Of a stretch of DNA of 52,565 nt, positions 25,717 through 33,557 are shown one piece after another (the first letter of the stretch is position 1; each line of letters begins with the position of its first letter). The position numbers and the translations under genes are program-made. The notes under the pieces were generated by a model. It ran no database searches and was not told the origin of the DNA. It was given only the letters and a program-made list of their open reading frames with translations. The stretch comes from Thermogemmatispora onikobensis. GTDB lineage: Bacteria; Chloroflexota; Ktedonobacteria; Ktedonobacterales; Ktedonobacteraceae. The stretch covers positions 1 to 52,565 of the forward strand of contig NZ_BDGT01000038.1 of NCBI RefSeq assembly GCF_001748285.1. Reading direction: 5' to 3'.

Positions 25717-25745
25717 TTGACAGCGCCAGCCATCTCCGCTATACT
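25717..25745 (+). promoter_or_regulatory. Near-consensus promoter of the methionine cluster
   Basis: Perfect TTGACA (25717-25722), 17 bases, TATACT (25740-25745). Predicted start near 25752, about 40 bases before the SAM riboswitch. A second TATAAT sits at 25756-25761. Confidence 0.8.
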
Positions 25746-25793
25746 AACTAACAACTATAATGTACCCGAACAATTGAACCGACGCGGTTAGCG

Positions 25794-25952
25794 CTCTCAT
25801 CAAGACGGGTGGAGGGAGACGGCCCTGTGAAGCCCGGCAACCCGCCAGCAGAGCTGCTGGCAAGGTGCCAATTCCGGCGGAACACCGTTCCGCAAGATGA
25901 GGGGAACCTGGCAATGATGCTAAAGACCCCTTTTCACAAAAAGGGGTTTTTT
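25794..25952 (+). ncRNA. SAM-I (S-box) riboswitch with expression platform
   Basis: Recognised from the conserved core GGTGGAGGGA, GGCCCTGTGAAGCCCGGCAACC and a following GGTGCCAATTCC segment. The P1 helix is visible: CTCATC at 25796-25801 with GATGAG at 25896-25901. The 3' strand of P1 continues into GGGG (25901-25904), which can pair with CCCC (25927-25930) of the terminator. This gives mutually exclusive antiterminator and terminator states: SAM bound means P1 forms and the terminator stops transcription. It is an OFF switch ahead of a second switch (T-box) and metX. Confidence 0.93.
25925..25952 (+). terminator. Intrinsic terminator of the SAM riboswitch
   Basis: Perfect CCCCTTTT (25927-25934) / AAAAGGGG (25939-25946) stem, 4-base loop, followed by six T (25947-25952). 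Confidence 0.93.
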
Positions 25953-26014
25953 CTTGCCCCGCGTACCGGTACCGGGCGGGTACGAGTGTGCTCACCAGTC
26001 GTCTAGCGGTCAAT

Positions 26015-26372
26015 CGAATCGAGAATGACGTTGACGAGGACGAGTAGACGTCGTGTGCGGCTACAGAGAGTCGGTGGCGCTGAGATGCCGGCGCTGCGGC
26101 GGCGTTGAAAATGCCCTCCGAGTTGCAGGTTGAAGGCCCGCGTTGGCGGGCGAGTAGACTGTGCCGGGTGGCTCCGTTACAGGCTGCAGTGTTGCGAGCA
26201 ACAAGATAGGTCCCAGGCAAGGCAAGGCTTCTGCTGGAGAGGAGAGCCGCGGTCGAGCCTGGGGCGACGTGACTCGGCAACACTCCAAGGCCAGCGTCGT
26301 GAGGCGCTGGCAAAACAGGGTGGTACCGCGAAGAGACTGTCCCTCGCCCCTGGGTAGGGTGAGGGTTTTTTT
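26015..26372 (+). ncRNA. T-box leader, predicted specific for tRNA-Met
   Basis: Stem I shows the GA motif GACGAGGACGAGTAG (about 26033-26047) and the AG-bulge region ACAGAGAGTCGG (about 26063). The specifier loop GAAAATGCCCTCCGAG puts the codon AUG at 26111-26113. A CCGTTA element follows at 26174-26179. The T-box sequence AGGGTGGTACCGCG is at 26317-26330. Its bulge UGGU would pair with an ACCA tRNA end, which fits tRNA-Met with discriminator A. AGGG (26317-26320) can pair with CCCT (26341-26344), which is also the 5' arm of the terminator, so the two structures exclude each other. Uncharged tRNA-Met should permit readthrough to metX. Confidence 0.92.
26341..26372 (+). terminator. Intrinsic terminator of the T-box leader
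   Basis: CCCTCGCCC (26341-26349) pairs with GGGTGAGGG (26357-26365, one G-U), 7-base loop, then seven T (26366-26372). Confidence 0.92.
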
Positions 26373-26401: not shown

Positions 26402-27550
26402 ATGGTGGCTCGCGTCGAGCACAGCGTGGTGACAGGTACACAGCCTGCTCCTGTGAATCACTTGCAAAGCTATACCTTCGACTCGTTGCCGCTTCAGTAC
26501 GGTGGCCAATTTGGCCCCGTGACGCTGGCTTACGAAACCTGGGGGCGCCTCAACGCGGCAGGCGACAATGCCATCCTGATCGCTCATGCCCTGACGGGCA
26601 GTTCGCATGCCCACGATCCTGAGCACCCGGACGACCCGAAGGCCGCCTGGTGGAACCCACTGATCGGTCCTGGCCGGCCCTTCGATACGTCGCGCTACTT
26701 TGTCGTCTGCTCAAACGTGCTCGGCGGCTGCTATGGCAGTACTGGCCCTGCCTCGATCGATCCGAGCACGGGGCAACCCTACGGCATGCGTTTCCCGCTG
26801 GTCACGATCCGCGATATGGTCCATGCCCAGCGCCGCCTGATAGAGCACCTGGGTATTCGCCGCCTGGTTGTGGCCGGCGGCTCGATCGGGGGACAGCAGG
26901 CGCTGGAATGGGCAGTCTGCTACCCGGAGCTGGTGGAGAAGGTCATCGTGGTGGCCGCCACGGCGGCTTTGACTGCTCAGGCTATTGCCTTCAGTGAAGT
27001 GGGGCGCCAGGCCATTATGCTCGACCCGCGCTGGCAGGGCGGCGATTATCCGCCCGGCCAGGGACCCGATGCCGGCCTGGCCATCGCGCGCATGCTCGGC
27101 ATGATTACCTACCAGAGCGAAGAGGCAATGGAGCTGCGCTTCTCCCGTCGCCCGGCTCGCTCTTGTGAGATTCCTACACCGACCCGCACCCCAAGCCTGG
27201 GAAAGCGCTTCGATGTAGAGAATTATCTGTATTATCAGGGCCAGTCTCTGGTGAGGCGCTTCGACGCTAACACATATCTGTATCTGAGTCGCGCAATGGA
27301 TCTCTACGATGTCAGCGAGGGCTACCCTTCTCTGGATGCAGCTCTTGCTCGTATTCGCAGCCGTGCGCTCTTTATCGGCATTCGCTCTGACTTTCTCTTT
27401 CCGGCGGCGCGGGTCCGCTGGCTGGCCGGGCGAGTGCGGGAGCTTGGAGGAGATGCCTCCTATATCGAGTTGGATTCTCCTCATGGCCACGATGCTTTCT
27501 TGAAAGAGTGGGAGCAGATGAGCGCTGCTCTGCGCTGGCTGGAAACCTGA
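26402..27550 (+). CDS. metX: Homoserine O-acetyltransferase (MetX)
   Basis: Alpha/beta-hydrolase enzyme that acetylates (or, in some members, succinylates) homoserine, the first committed step to methionine. The 382 residues carry the nucleophile elbow GGSIGGQQALEW (Ser at about 160), the family stretch HALTGSSHAHD (about 62-72) and the catalytic His in SPHGHDAFL (about 360). The start ATG 26402 has AAGGAG with 7 bases of spacing, 29 bases after the T-box terminator. A GTG at 26396 is too close to that site. Expression should require readthrough of both the SAM riboswitch and the T-box. metY follows after 122 bases. Confidence 0.94.
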   Translation: MVARVEHSVVTGTQPAPVNHLQSYTFDSLPLQYGGQFGPVTLAYETWGRLNAAGDNAILIAHALTGSSHAHDPEHPDDPKAAWWNPLIGPGRPFDTSRYFVVCSNVLGGCYGSTGPASIDPSTGQPYGMRFPLVTIRDMVHAQRRLIEHLGIRRLVVAGGSIGGQQALEWAVCYPELVEKVIVVAATAALTAQAIAFSEVGRQAIMLDPRWQGGDYPPGQGPDAGLAIARMLGMITYQSEEAMELRFSRRPARSCEIPTPTRTPSLGKRFDVENYLYYQGQSLVRRFDANTYLYLSRAMDLYDVSEGYPSLDAALARIRSRALFIGIRSDFLFPAARVRWLAGRVRELGGDASYIELDSPHGHDAFLKEWEQMSAALRWLET

Positions 27551-27642: not shown

Positions 27643-28998
<1,356 letters not shown>

Positions 28999-29053
28999 GA
29001 AGAAGCGAGGCCAGCAAGTGGTGCCTCGCCTGGGAGATAAAGGGTGATTGTCA

Positions 29054-30535
29054 ATGGATGTTGAGTGTTCGCTCTGTGTGCTAAAGTTTGGTGGTACCTC
29101 TGTTGGCAGTGGCGAGCGTATTCGCCGTGTTGCTCAGATTGTGGCTCAGGCGGCCAGTAAAGCTCTCAACGAGGGGGCGCCTTTCCCCGTCGTGGTGGTC
29201 TCAGCGATGTCGGGCATTACAGATCAGCTGCTGCGCATTGCCCATTTTGCCCGGCGGGGCGAGAGCCTCGAGTGGCGCCGCGAGTTGGCGGCTCTACGTG
29301 ATCGGCATCTTCAGGCCGCTGAGAAGGCTGTTCATGATGGAATGCGCCTGGCGGAGCTGCGCGCCACTCTCGAAGAGGCGCTGGCCGGGCTGGAGCGTGA
29401 GGCCGCTGGCTGTGAGGGCTATGTCGACGCCGTAGCGGCCTGGGGTGAGCGTCTCTCGGTGCTCTTGCTGGCTGCTGCCATCAATGATCTCAGCCTGCCG
29501 GGAGTAGCGGCTGCTCCAGTGCGTGAAGAGGTTATCGTAACGGGAGAGCCGCAGGGCCATGCGCCGAGCGAGCCGGGCGCTGTCATTGGCGCTGAGCCGC
29601 TGGAAGAGGAAACGCGCGCGCGGGCGCAGCAGCTGCTGCTGCCTTTGCTCCAGGGGCGGGGGCGGACGGTCCCGGTGGCCCCGGGCTTTATCGGGCGCAC
29701 ACCTGCTGGTCTGGTCACAACCCTGGGGCGCAACGGCTCCGACTACTCTGCCACTGTCATTGGGGCCGCGATCGACTGCTGCGAAGTTGCCATCTATACC
29801 GACGTGGATGGGGTCATGTCCGCCGACCCGCGCATCGTTGCCAATGCGCGTCTACTGCCGGCCTTGACCTATGCGGAGGCGGCGCGCCTCTCCTGGTTTG
29901 GGGCAAAAGTCTTGCATCCGCGCACCCTGATCCCGGTAGCCCAGCGCAATATCCCTGTGCGTGTGCGTAACACCTTCCGGCCACAGATGCACGGCACGCT
30001 CATTGGGCCGGAGGGCAAGTATCACAGTGGGGCCACGGCCATCACCGTTCGGCGGCGCCTGGCCCTGGTGACCGTTGAGAGTACCAACATGTTTGGTGCT
30101 CCCGAGAACGCTGGTCAAGTCTTTGCTCTGGCGGCTCGCGTTGGGGCGGCCCCCGTGGCCATCTGCTCCTCTTCTGGTCATCATCTCTCGTTTATGGTCG
30201 AAGAGCAGGCCGCGGCCTCTGTTGTCTCCTTGCTTCAGCATGACCTGGGTCACTGGCGAGTTAGCTGTCGCCCGGGTCTGGCGGCCTGTGCCTGCCTCGG
30301 CTCTGGTTTTACGAGCGATCCGATGAGTCCGGCCCGGGCGATCAGCGCGCTGGCGCGCGAGCGCATTCCCGTTATCTCCCAGGGTGCTTCCGAGCAGGGC
30401 ATTATTCTCATCGTTGAAGATGGTGACAGCGAGCGTGCTCTGCGCTGCCTCCATCGAGATTTGATCGCGCCGGTGATTCCTCTTGTACGCCATCCGGCCC
30501 ATGAAAAGCGTCTGGAAGCGCTGAAGGCCCGCTAG
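29054..30535 (+). CDS. lysC: Aspartate kinase
   Basis: Phosphorylates aspartate, the entry step to lysine, threonine and methionine. It shows the kinase start LKFGGTSVGSGERI, the substrate segment FIGRTPAGLVTTLGRNGSDYSA, TDVDGVMSADPRIV and GAKVLHPRTL. Two ACT domains follow (about 335-470), so it should be allosterically controlled by an amino acid. ATG 29054 is preferred, with AAAGGG about 9 bases upstream; a TTG at 29048 is an alternative. It has 493 residues. No homoserine dehydrogenase domain is fused. The gene follows metY by about 50 bases. Confidence 0.92.
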   Translation: MDVECSLCVLKFGGTSVGSGERIRRVAQIVAQAASKALNEGAPFPVVVVSAMSGITDQLLRIAHFARRGESLEWRRELAALRDRHLQAAEKAVHDGMRLAELRATLEEALAGLEREAAGCEGYVDAVAAWGERLSVLLLAAAINDLSLPGVAAAPVREEVIVTGEPQGHAPSEPGAVIGAEPLEEETRARAQQLLLPLLQGRGRTVPVAPGFIGRTPAGLVTTLGRNGSDYSATVIGAAIDCCEVAIYTDVDGVMSADPRIVANARLLPALTYAEAARLSWFGAKVLHPRTLIPVAQRNIPVRVRNTFRPQMHGTLIGPEGKYHSGATAITVRRRLALVTVESTNMFGAPENAGQVFALAARVGAAPVAICSSSGHHLSFMVEEQAAASVVSLLQHDLGHWRVSCRPGLAACACLGSGFTSDPMSPARAISALARERIPVISQGASEQGIILIVEDGDSERALRCLHRDLIAPVIPLVRHPAHEKRLEALKAR

Positions 30536-30581: not shown

Positions 30582-31655
30582 TTGACGATGCAACAGATGC
30601 AACAACGTCTCCCGGTGGCGGTGCTCGGGGCGACTGGCATGGTAGGGCAGCGCTTCATCGAGCTATTGCAAGGCCATCCCTGGTTCGAGCTGGTAGCTCT
30701 GGCGGCCTCTGACGTGCACGGGGGGCGCCCCTATGGCGAGGTAGCGCGCTGGCGTCTTGGTGGCAGCATGCCCGAGCAGGTAGCCCGGCTGCCGGTCTTG
30801 CCTTGCCGCCCGGAGGCCCTGCCAGAGATCAAGATCGCCTTCTCGGCTCTGCCAGCTGAGGTGGCTGGTGAGGTCGAGGCTGCTTTTGCACGGGCCGGCG
30901 TGGCCGTCTTCAGCAATGCCAAGAGCTACCGCATGGAGCCTGATGTACCACTGTTGGTGCCCGAGGTCAATGCTGAGCATGCCCTGGCCATTCAGCAGCA
31001 GCGCAAACGTCGGGGCTGGAGCGGCTGCATTGTGACGAATCCGAATTGTTCGGCCACGCCGCTGGTGATGGCGCTTAAGCCCTTGCAGCAAGCCTTTGGC
31101 CTGCGCAAAGTTCTGGTGACGACCCTGCAAGCGATCTCTGGGGCTGGCTATCCAGGTCTGCCCTCCTACGATATTCTCGACAACGCCATTCCTTTCATCT
31201 CTGGTGAGGAGCCGAAGGTTGAGAGCGAGACGCTCAAGATGCTGGGCGAGTGGCGTGAAGAAGAGGGTTTCAACTGGGCGCCACTGGTTGTGAGCGCGCA
31301 CTGCAATCGTATCGCCACGCGCGAGGGCCACCTGGAGTGCGTGAGCGTCGAGCTAGAGCGCCAGGCCTCACCCGAAGAGGTGATCTCGGCCTGGGAGCAC
31401 TTCCTGCCTGAACCGCAGCGTTTGCAACTGCCGAGCGCTCCTCTGCCACCGCTGATCTACCGCAGCGAAGAGGATCGTCCACAGACGCTGCACGATCGCG
31501 ATGCGGGTCGGGGAATGGCGGTCACCCTGGGGCGCCTGCGTCCCTGCCCCGTCTTGAGCTATAAATTTGTCGCCCTGGCCCATAATACTATCCGCGGTGC
31601 AGCGGGTGGCTCCCTGTTAAACGCAGAGCTATGTGTCAGGAAGGGCCTGCTCTGA
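30582..31655 (+). CDS. asd: Aspartate-semialdehyde dehydrogenase
   Basis: Reduces aspartyl phosphate to the semialdehyde with NADPH, directly after aspartate kinase. The 357 residues show the NADP loop LGATGMVGQRF (about 14-24), the active-site Cys in TNPNCSAT (about 156), the AISGAGYPG segment and the catalytic His in VSAHCNRIATREGH. The longer form with the FKFVALAHN-like C-terminus resembles the archaeal/fungal-type Asd. The start may be TTG 30582 (5 bases after AAAGGAGG at 30569-30576) or ATG 30588. It is the last gene of the met/asp cluster and is followed by a strong inverted repeat. Confidence 0.93.
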   Translation: MTMQQMQQRLPVAVLGATGMVGQRFIELLQGHPWFELVALAASDVHGGRPYGEVARWRLGGSMPEQVARLPVLPCRPEALPEIKIAFSALPAEVAGEVEAAFARAGVAVFSNAKSYRMEPDVPLLVPEVNAEHALAIQQQRKRRGWSGCIVTNPNCSATPLVMALKPLQQAFGLRKVLVTTLQAISGAGYPGLPSYDILDNAIPFISGEEPKVESETLKMLGEWREEEGFNWAPLVVSAHCNRIATREGHLECVSVELERQASPEEVISAWEHFLPEPQRLQLPSAPLPPLIYRSEEDRPQTLHDRDAGRGMAVTLGRLRPCPVLSYKFVALAHNTIRGAAGGSLLNAELCVRKGLL

Positions 31656-31796: not shown

Positions 31797-33146
31797 TTAC
31801 TGACCTGCTGCTGCCAGGGTTGCCTGGGTGCGAATCAGATCGGGAATGAGGTATTGTGCATTGGGGCTGCCCAGCCCGGTCACAGCATCCCAGCCTGCTT
31901 CGGCGGGGTAACCGGGCACATTCACACCCTGGTCGACGCTGTTATCTCCCACAGTAATATCGTGGAAATCGCGCTGGTAGTTCGCTGAAGCAGCAATGGT
32001 ATACAGGGCTGGGTTCAGAAAACCGAGTGGATGACCGGCCATCTGATTGGCAATCGCCGCCAGGGCTGCCCACATTGGAGCGGAGGCGCTGGTCCCACCG
32101 ACCGTCTCCCAGACGCCGTTGAAGTAGAAAGCCAGGTTGGTTGCCGGGTCAGCAGCAGCGGCCACATCGGGAATGCCACGTCGGCCCTGGAAGGCTGCCT
32201 GAGTAGCGGCAGGCAGGGACTTCTGATAGGCTGGCTCCGGGAAGAAGCGACTGAAGCCGCCACCGCTCTTACTCCAGCCGATCTCATGGACCTGCTGCCC
32301 CTGGCGCAGCAACGTTGTCCCCCCCACGCTAGTCACCCAGGGCACGTCGGCGGCGAAACTGGTCGTGGCCTTGGGCGAGAGCCGCGACATATTCAAATCG
32401 GCGTAATCGGTGGCGCCGTTGTCTCCCGAAGAGCTGAAGAAAGTCATATGCTCCTCTAATGTCGCCCGCTGGAGCAGGGCGTTCCACTCTTGGATCTCCT
32501 GCTGACCAGCAGCATCCTCCAGCGTTACCTCGGAAGCCCCCCAGCTTTGGGAGACGATCGTGCCCAGGTGGTGATCGATAGCATACTGAATCAACTGGCG
32601 AAACTCGGGCAACCCGACCGTGCCTTCCGTCTCCGCCACGGGGCTGACCAGTACCACAATCCTGGCGTCGGGAGCCAGCGCATGAATGATCTCCACGTCG
32701 AGTTCGGTTTCTCCGGCCCAGCCGCTCTTATCGTGATGGGGATCGTATTCCGGCTTCTGGACCGGCTGAATCACTTGAACCCTGGTGAGAGGCAGGTGAA
32801 AACGACGACTGAAGACATCGAGATCCTGCTGCAGGGTGGGGCTGCCAAACGAGACGATATCGATAATGGTCTGGCCCTTACCGGTATAGCCACGCTGGAT
32901 CAGCGGCTCGAAGCCGTAGTATTGGCGAAGCTGGAGAGGAGTATAGCAAGTGACTGCAGAGCTGAAGAGGACTGGGGGACAGCTCTCGGCTGCTGCGCTG
33001 GGAGTGGCTGAGCGCGGCGTGGGGGTCGTCGTGGCAGTGCCCCCAGTTCCAGGCAGACCCGCGCAGCCACTGAAGGCGAGTGCGAGGGTAAAGGATATCA
33101 GTAGCCATAGCTTGAGGAAAGGCTTGTATTGGCCGTGGCCTTGCAT
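31797..33146 (-). CDS. S53 (sedolisin/kumamolisin) serine-carboxyl peptidase, lipoprotein form
   Basis: 449 residues from ATG 33146, which has AAGGAG about 7 bases upstream. A signal sequence ends in FSGC (Cys28), so the protein is probably a lipoprotein. The S53 triad is visible: Glu146 and Asp150 in GETELDVE (spacing of four) and Ser353 in GGTSASAP. The oxyanion Asp243 lies in SSSGDNGA. Calcium-site residues occur near the C-terminus (DITVGDN, DAVTGLGSP). The usual propeptide of about 180 residues is absent; only a short Thr/Pro/Ser linker separates Cys28 from the catalytic domain. These enzymes normally work outside the cell at acidic pH. Confidence 0.9.
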   Translation of the reverse strand: MQGHGQYKPFLKLWLLISFTLALAFSGCAGLPGTGGTATTTPTPRSATPSAAAESCPPVLFSSAVTCYTPLQLRQYYGFEPLIQRGYTGKGQTIIDIVSFGSPTLQQDLDVFSRRFHLPLTRVQVIQPVQKPEYDPHHDKSGWAGETELDVEIIHALAPDARIVVLVSPVAETEGTVGLPEFRQLIQYAIDHHLGTIVSQSWGASEVTLEDAAGQQEIQEWNALLQRATLEEHMTFFSSSGDNGATDYADLNMSRLSPKATTSFAADVPWVTSVGGTTLLRQGQQVHEIGWSKSGGGFSRFFPEPAYQKSLPAATQAAFQGRRGIPDVAAAADPATNLAFYFNGVWETVGGTSASAPMWAALAAIANQMAGHPLGFLNPALYTIAASANYQRDFHDITVGDNSVDQGVNVPGYPAEAGWDAVTGLGSPNAQYLIPDLIRTQATLAAAGQ

Positions 33147-33557
33147 CCAGCTCTCCTTCTGGAAAATATCCCTGTCTGCCCTGCTAATCCATGACATGAG
33201 CGGGCACAGACAGCGCAGCTCCCCATAGCGGTTCACTGCGGCCCAATGCGAAAGCAGTATATCGTGATGGCTCAAAAAGGTCAATTCTTCCTCTGAGTGG
33301 TTCGTCTCCTCTCAAGCGATCTCAGAAACTCGACAGAAGGAAGCGACTGCTCCAAAGGGCGCAACAGCGGTGGTGAGCCGATAAGAAGCAGGCGGTTAAG
33401 AAGACTCCTACCTCGCGGTACTATGGTCCTAACAGTAGCAAGGCGCGCTTGACCGCTCTCCTCCTTTCAGAGTACATTCAGGCATGATGACATAGAAAGA
33501 TATCAATGAGAAGGCGCGCAACAACGCGGCTCATAATTTCAACGATAGGAATGCAGC
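33147..33557. other. Divergent intergenic region
   Basis: 411 bases between the protease gene (leftward) and the first CHAP gene (rightward). It holds the promoter candidate at 33450-33479. A short segment at about 33415-33445 resembles part of a 23S rRNA helix, most likely by chance. No gene seen. Confidence 0.4.
33450..33479 (+). promoter_or_regulatory. Candidate promoter of the first CHAP gene
   Basis: TTGACC (33450-33455), 18 bases, TACATT (33474-33479). The leader would be about 70 nt. Confidence 0.45.

Follow-up and report, generated by a model that had tools for sequence, protein, structure and literature searches.

The 52,565-nt stretch of Thermogemmatispora onikobensis DNA that we analyzed (contig NZ_BDGT01000038.1, hereafter the window) raises the question of whether two RNA switches placed in series, one sensing S-adenosylmethionine (SAM) and one sensing tRNA, jointly control a single methionine operon. 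Downstream of both switches, and in the order metX-metY-lysC-asd that a reading of the sequence alone had proposed, four forward-strand genes encode homoserine O-acetyltransferase (metX, 26402..27550, start chosen by eye; NF001209, 454 bits against a cut-off of 331), homocysteine synthase of the O-acetylhomoserine sulfhydrylase type (metY, 27673..28998; NF006096, 757 bits against 726), aspartate kinase (lysC, 29048..30535; TIGR00657, 324 bits against 208.7) and aspartate-semialdehyde dehydrogenase (asd, 30582..31655; TIGR00978, 429 bits against 301.2). The gene names rest on these above-cut-off NCBIfam matches to MetX, homocysteine synthase, aspartate kinase and aspartate-semialdehyde dehydrogenase, and the metX shares 97% identity with its T. 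carboxidivorans counterpart. With lysC and asd in the operon, the entry into lysine and threonine synthesis would come under methionine control as well. Beyond asd, on the reverse strand, an open reading frame at 31797-33284 resembles a secreted sedolisin-type (S53) protease by eye.

The first element of the leader is a complete SAM-I (S-box) riboswitch with a terminator of its own, as the sequence-only reading had it. The aptamer occupies 25794..25903 on the forward strand, with P1 formed by 25794-25801 and 25896-25903, and in an Rfam search of the whole window it matched RF00162 over model positions 1-108 at 80.6 bits (gathering score 44.4; E 1.8e-17). An antiterminator (25899..25932, forward strand) pairs GAGGGG at 25899-25904 with CCCCTT at 25927-25932, and so has bases in common with both the 3′ strand of P1 and the 5′ arm of the intrinsic terminator, which with its T run covers 25925..25953 on the same strand (terminator-like site 25928-25946, from folds). 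For the nascent RNA up to position 25937, the best fold was the antiterminator at −59.4 kcal/mol, compared with −58.1 kcal/mol with P1 forced; because the two forms lie only 1.3 kcal/mol apart, binding of SAM could decide between them. As soon as the terminator is able to form, P1 together with the terminator becomes the best fold of the SAM leader, and across the whole leader folded in its ligand-free state the terminated form is favored (−72.6 versus −63.6 kcal/mol), so that read-through would depend on folding during transcription, as is likewise assumed for other SAM-I switches. Folds and alignment together thus show the mutually exclusive P1/antiterminator expression platform that is expected of a SAM-I switch. 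GAGGGG and its CCC partner did not vary among the 15 family leaders that were aligned, out of 29 leaders across the class that carry both switches; in family f4 GAGGGG is not kept throughout, reading GAGAGG in one leader (L134) and GAGGGA in two (L144, L146).

The second element is a T-box leader extending from Stem I to the antiterminator (26022..26354, forward strand) and matching RF00230 over model positions 1-219 at 82.8 bits (E 2.4e-18), an E-value that rules out a chance match. The Rfam comparison therefore confirmed both predicted RNAs by model, but the T-box score lies below the gathering score of 93, so that this match is seen only when an E-value threshold is applied. That cut-off appears strict for the lineage, since of 13 T-boxes detected in the window's genome 12 score below 93 bits while orthologous tandem T-boxes score up to 106 bits (G045); a score of 93 bits is attained by 10 of the class's 29 tandem T-boxes. 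The RF00230 alignment places the AGAGAG motif in upper Stem I at 26065..26070 and the specifier codon at 26111..26113, both on the forward strand, and a Stem I with an AGAGAG region together with a specifier that fits the operon is what a T-box should show.

At the 3′ end of the leader, the forward-strand antiterminator (26316..26352) folds into helix A1 (CAGGG at 26316-26320 with CCCTG at 26348-26352), a bulge (TGGTACC, 26321-26327) and helix A2 (GCGA at 26328-26331 with TCGC at 26344-26347). Its 3′ strands overlap an intrinsic terminator with T run (26341..26372, forward strand; stem 26341-26365), and the two structures compete through 26341-26352, the antiterminator reaching −10.8 kcal/mol when its piece is folded and the terminator stem CCCUCGCCC/GGGUGAGGG −17.3. 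In known T-boxes termination is the default and tRNA is needed to switch. The UGGU of the bulge matches the tRNA discriminator and the antiterminator overlaps the terminator, again as in a T-box; the complete T-box leader with a second terminator that had been described before metX is thus present, and overlapping terminator and antiterminator strands were borne out by the folds for both switches. We did not take a terminator pattern alone as evidence, because shuffles of the 2-kb region yield 1.4 such patterns by chance against the 2 found. A looser script (at least 5 pairs, 5 T in 8) recovered the first terminator in 28 of the 29 tandem leaders (absent in L141) and the second also in 28 (absent in L134); this script sometimes merged adjoining stems, so that the terminator energies derived from it are rough, and for L086 and L104 it gave the second terminator in both columns.

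Which amino acid does the T-box read? The specifier column of the alignment holds AUG, and the methionine specificity claimed earlier is upheld by its conservation: ATG occurs six bases before GAG, AAG or TAG in 28 of the 29 tandem leaders. This search was anchored on Stem I, and in L101 and L123, which each gave a spurious second match, the ATG match was counted. The exception, L134 (G009), has a weak T-box of 49.8 bits in which the loop differs, yet it contains ATG. Because the window's GAAAAUG can also be parsed GAA-AAU-G, the T-box might instead read another amino acid, for example Asn through AAU one base earlier. We regard this as extremely improbable and reject the AAU specifier, since in those 28 leaders the base preceding ATG varies (A in 12, T in 13, G in 3) while AUG itself is fixed, which sets the reading frame as AUG; moreover, the UGGU bulge, present in all 29 leaders, suits discriminator A, and the product of the operon is methionine. 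In the tRNA survey (45 genome matches, with 30 loci and 13 regions read by ARAGORN), the window's genome had three tRNAs with anticodon CAU, all with discriminator A. Two of these we take to be initiators from a feature of the anticodon stem, and the third is either an elongator tRNA-Met or a tRNA-Ile2.

For the two switches to act on the same RNA, they must be transcribed together. A sigma-70-type promoter, TTGACA-17-TATACT, lies upstream of the aptamer at 25717..25745 on the forward strand and matches the consensus at 11 of 12 positions, in agreement with the near-consensus promoter first noted there; sites of such quality average 0.4 in shuffles of the 2-kb region. All 27 metX leaders of the family with a SAM match have a site of 10-12 matches out of 12 located 75-114 nt upstream of the aptamer, and in family f4 a site of at least 9/12 precedes the aptamer in 4 of 7 leaders, with none of that quality found upstream of it in L141, L144 and L146. 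The gap between the switches (25904-26021) spans 118 nt, which leaves no room for a gene of ordinary size. The sequence-only reading had named a promoter at 25952-26015 as the finding that would separate the switches, and a scan for one promoter type gave no site of at least 8/12 in 25953-26015; the sole linker candidate of that quality, at about 26130, has a spacer of 19 nt and is situated within the T-box. An internal promoter that makes the T-box an independent transcript, leaving SAM in control of only part of the expression, has a precedent in published adenine/T-box-Tyr tandems, for which the available text of PMC9481103 describes a second promoter, and one leader (L085, G019) carries a 9/12 candidate between its switches. 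The other 33 of the 34 leaders scanned for the same promoter type have no inter-switch site of at least 9/12, and the window's own candidate falls within the T-box, which makes this arrangement improbable. The scan thus supports both switches lying on a single transcript.

We consider it very probable that the leader works by transcription termination as an RNA gate with two inputs. From the elements, the mutually exclusive pairings observed in both switches and their conservation, we infer ligand binding, termination and the resulting logic as follows. RNA polymerase would start at the promoter (25717-25745) and make the SAM-I aptamer first. With SAM bound, P1 would be held, the terminator at about 25925-25953 would form, and a short transcript would result; when SAM is scarce, the 3′ strand of P1 would pair with the 5′ arm of the terminator, and polymerase would continue into the T-box. 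By default, transcription would stop at the second terminator (26341-26372). An uncharged tRNA bearing the anticodon CAU would bind the AUG specifier through that anticodon and the UGGU bulge through its ACCA end, thereby stabilizing the antiterminator and letting polymerase enter metX-metY-lysC-asd. Output would accordingly require low SAM and uncharged tRNA-Met, that is, 'NOT A AND B'. The two-signal AND gate proposed for this leader is retained as to its two switches and their order, with the predicted logic corrected to NOT SAM AND uncharged tRNA-Met.

A search for the same order among relatives had been suggested at the outset. In the class Ktedonobacteria (47 genomes), SAM-I matches were found in 43 genomes and T-box matches in 47; the SAM search used stricter filters, with which weak matches can be lost. 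We fetched all 75 listed SAM-match regions, 34 of them before metX, and scanned them for a T-box core. The same order recurs in 29 genomes of the class: before metX in 24 of the 29 genomes of the window's family (f1), covering 11 of its 13 genera, and in 5 of the 11 genomes of family f4 (G009, G014, G015, G016 and G018). All 29 leaders have Rfam matches to both RNAs, and alignments A1 and A2 took in 18 and 15 of them, respectively. Within the window's genus, full-model matches to both RNAs, AUG, UGGU and both terminators are present in 6 of 6 genomes. The remaining f1 genomes comprise three with SAM and no T-box, one with a T-box and a decayed SAM aptamer (G025) and one unreadable (G044); the remaining f4 genomes comprise two with reduced leaders (G011, G013), one cut by a contig end (G008) and three with no readable metX. 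In family f3 (6 genomes), a T-box without SAM precedes metX in the three examined (G002, G005, G006), and in G001 (family f2) neither SAM nor T-box was found before metX. Several genomes entered neither the tandem nor the non-tandem count: G044, where the SAM region consists of N only; G008, whose contig starts after the place of the aptamer; G003, G004, G010 and G012, with no metX at the cut-off; G017, which had no SAM match in the class search and is absent from the metX rows; and G007, with metX at a contig edge. Leader L136 (G011) stands outside the 29, as it has no Stem I and no Rfam T-box match.

In a wider survey of 301 genomes of the phylum, metX was found at E 1e-60 in 105 (33 in the class and 72 outside it). 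None of the 72 metX leaders outside the class held the tandem at E 0.001, some of the stretches being short (L214, for example, has 469 bases); six of them had SAM only and two a T-box only. Below-cut-off microRNA matches in one locus (L230) were taken as chance. Among the named loci with a metX relative, 11 of 15 have a SAM motif, a T-box core and a specifier in order upstream, including Thermogemmatispora carboxidivorans, T. aurantia, T. tikiterensis, Ktedonosporobacter rubrisoli and Ktedonospora formicarum, while the others have a SAM motif only (L200, L206), no SAM motif (L196) or no upstream DNA (L204).

The relatives that lack one module bear on whether both inputs are used. In five genomes of the class SAM precedes metX and the T-box is incomplete or missing, so that the second input can be dispensed with: G011 retains SAM and only the antiterminator stretch of the T-box, and in G020, G029, G030 and G013 SAM is present and the T-box sensor absent. 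In G029 and G030 a stretch resembling the T-box terminator persists, starting with ACGTTTACCCCT and ending with GGGGTTTTTT, with Stem I and core gone, and that of G029 still folds as a terminator at −24.3 kcal/mol; a similarly built second terminator is present in G020 (−14.8 kcal/mol), and the remnant in G013 is weak (−3.3). Judged by sequence likeness, which is clear for G029 and G030 and weaker for G020 and G013, these leftover terminators are probably T-box relics, and such remnants suggest loss of the T-box rather than its later gain. Where the T-box is missing, the second terminator that stayed behind may now act as a fixed brake or be controlled in some other way. The opposite loss is seen in G025, where an Rfam search at E 0.001 gave no SAM-I match before metX, only the T-box; at this locus (L097, G025:C1, within 1715900-1723400) the SAM aptamer has decayed while the antiterminator strands and the T-box are intact, making it a natural knock-out of one input.

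Such losses (G025; G020, G029, G030 and G013; G011) speak for an account in which, in the window too, one switch is a relic and only the other regulates. All six genomes of the window's genus, however, keep the full matches, AUG, UGGU and both terminators, and we accordingly give that account little probability and retain the two-input gate. The other SAM loci of family f1 offer a comparison: 26 of 26 precede metK, with the aptamer 121-301 nt away as measured from the match start, and no T-box core was found within 900 nt at any of the 26. By this arrangement metK, which turns methionine into SAM, would answer to SAM alone and methionine making to both signals; a SAM-only metK in the same family fits such a division of labor. 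More broadly, an old gate in the Ktedonobacteria, with metK under SAM only and the methionine operon under SAM and tRNA-Met, may have been repeatedly reduced to one input by loss of a sensor, some terminators being left behind, an account that could equally well prove right or wrong. If true, these lineages would let the gain and loss of inputs by RNA logic gates be studied as natural experiments.

Several other loci were noted along the way. In families f3 and f4, SAM switches lie, as judged by eye, before a pfkB-type sugar kinase-like gene (L127-L131, L138, L143, L145) and before an mtnA-type isomerase-like gene (L135, L137, L140, L147), with metK 2.5-4.6 kb downstream at 8 loci of these families. 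Two T-box leaders stand in series on the same strand at G000:C8:116539-117401 (minus strand; L004 and L005). At G000:C25:77495-77888 (minus strand; L001, L182), a T-box leader with specifier CUC precedes leuS. Between its Stem II and its antiterminator lies a complete gene for tRNA-Ala(GGC), and a tRNA-Ala(CGC) is found just upstream of the leader, whose relatives are L052, L056, L057, L058, L062, L065 and L070. Among 42 T-box loci compared, the tRNA-Ala insertion is present in 8 of 8 with a LeuS match of at least 78% identity and absent from 6 with weaker LeuS-like matches. Processing of the tRNA would cut the leuS leader between sensor and switch, and our literature search found no paper on a tRNA gene inside a T-box leader.

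How does the leader compare with known systems? Searches pairing Ktedonobacter or Chloroflex with T-box, riboswitch, S-box or metX terms found no paper. The available portion of PMC3766115 does not mention the tandem, and PMC12452182 (Microb Genom 2025) describes contiguous T-box and SAM riboswitches in other operons, Ktedonobacter occurring 0 times in its main text. The pairing in one leader, thought rare in the sequence-only reading, is already in print: Table 2 of PMC9481103 (2022) gives seven examples of SAM-I followed by T box Met and two of the reverse order, the SAM-I/T box Met count being two in section 36 and seven in section 35 of its text. According to the sections available, SAM-I followed by T box Met is 'NOT A AND B' and the reverse order 'A AND NOT B', and the former tandems precede metX and metY. 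This kind of tandem is therefore known, and the window's locus or a relative may be among the seven.

Taken singly, the window's aptamer shares with SAM-I switches (RF00162) the full aptamer, the P1/antiterminator competition and the intrinsic terminator, but precedes a second switch rather than a gene; its T-box shares with Met-specific T-boxes (RF00230) the Stem I with AUG, Stem II, the UGGU bulge and the terminator, but is preceded by a SAM switch and scores under the Rfam cut-off. The present comparison adds the class-wide conservation, the lysC-asd extension, the contrast with metK and the losses of single modules. Most of what is known of tandem RNA logic gates consists of brief lists of examples, and with 11 of 13 genera, SAM-only and T-box-only relatives and a SAM-only metK at hand, the worth of the second input becomes testable by comparing relatives. 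Compared with the tandems in the available text of PMC9481103, the Thermogemmatispora leader shows both RNA classes, likewise ordered, ahead of metX and metY, and differs in that its operon also holds lysC and asd.
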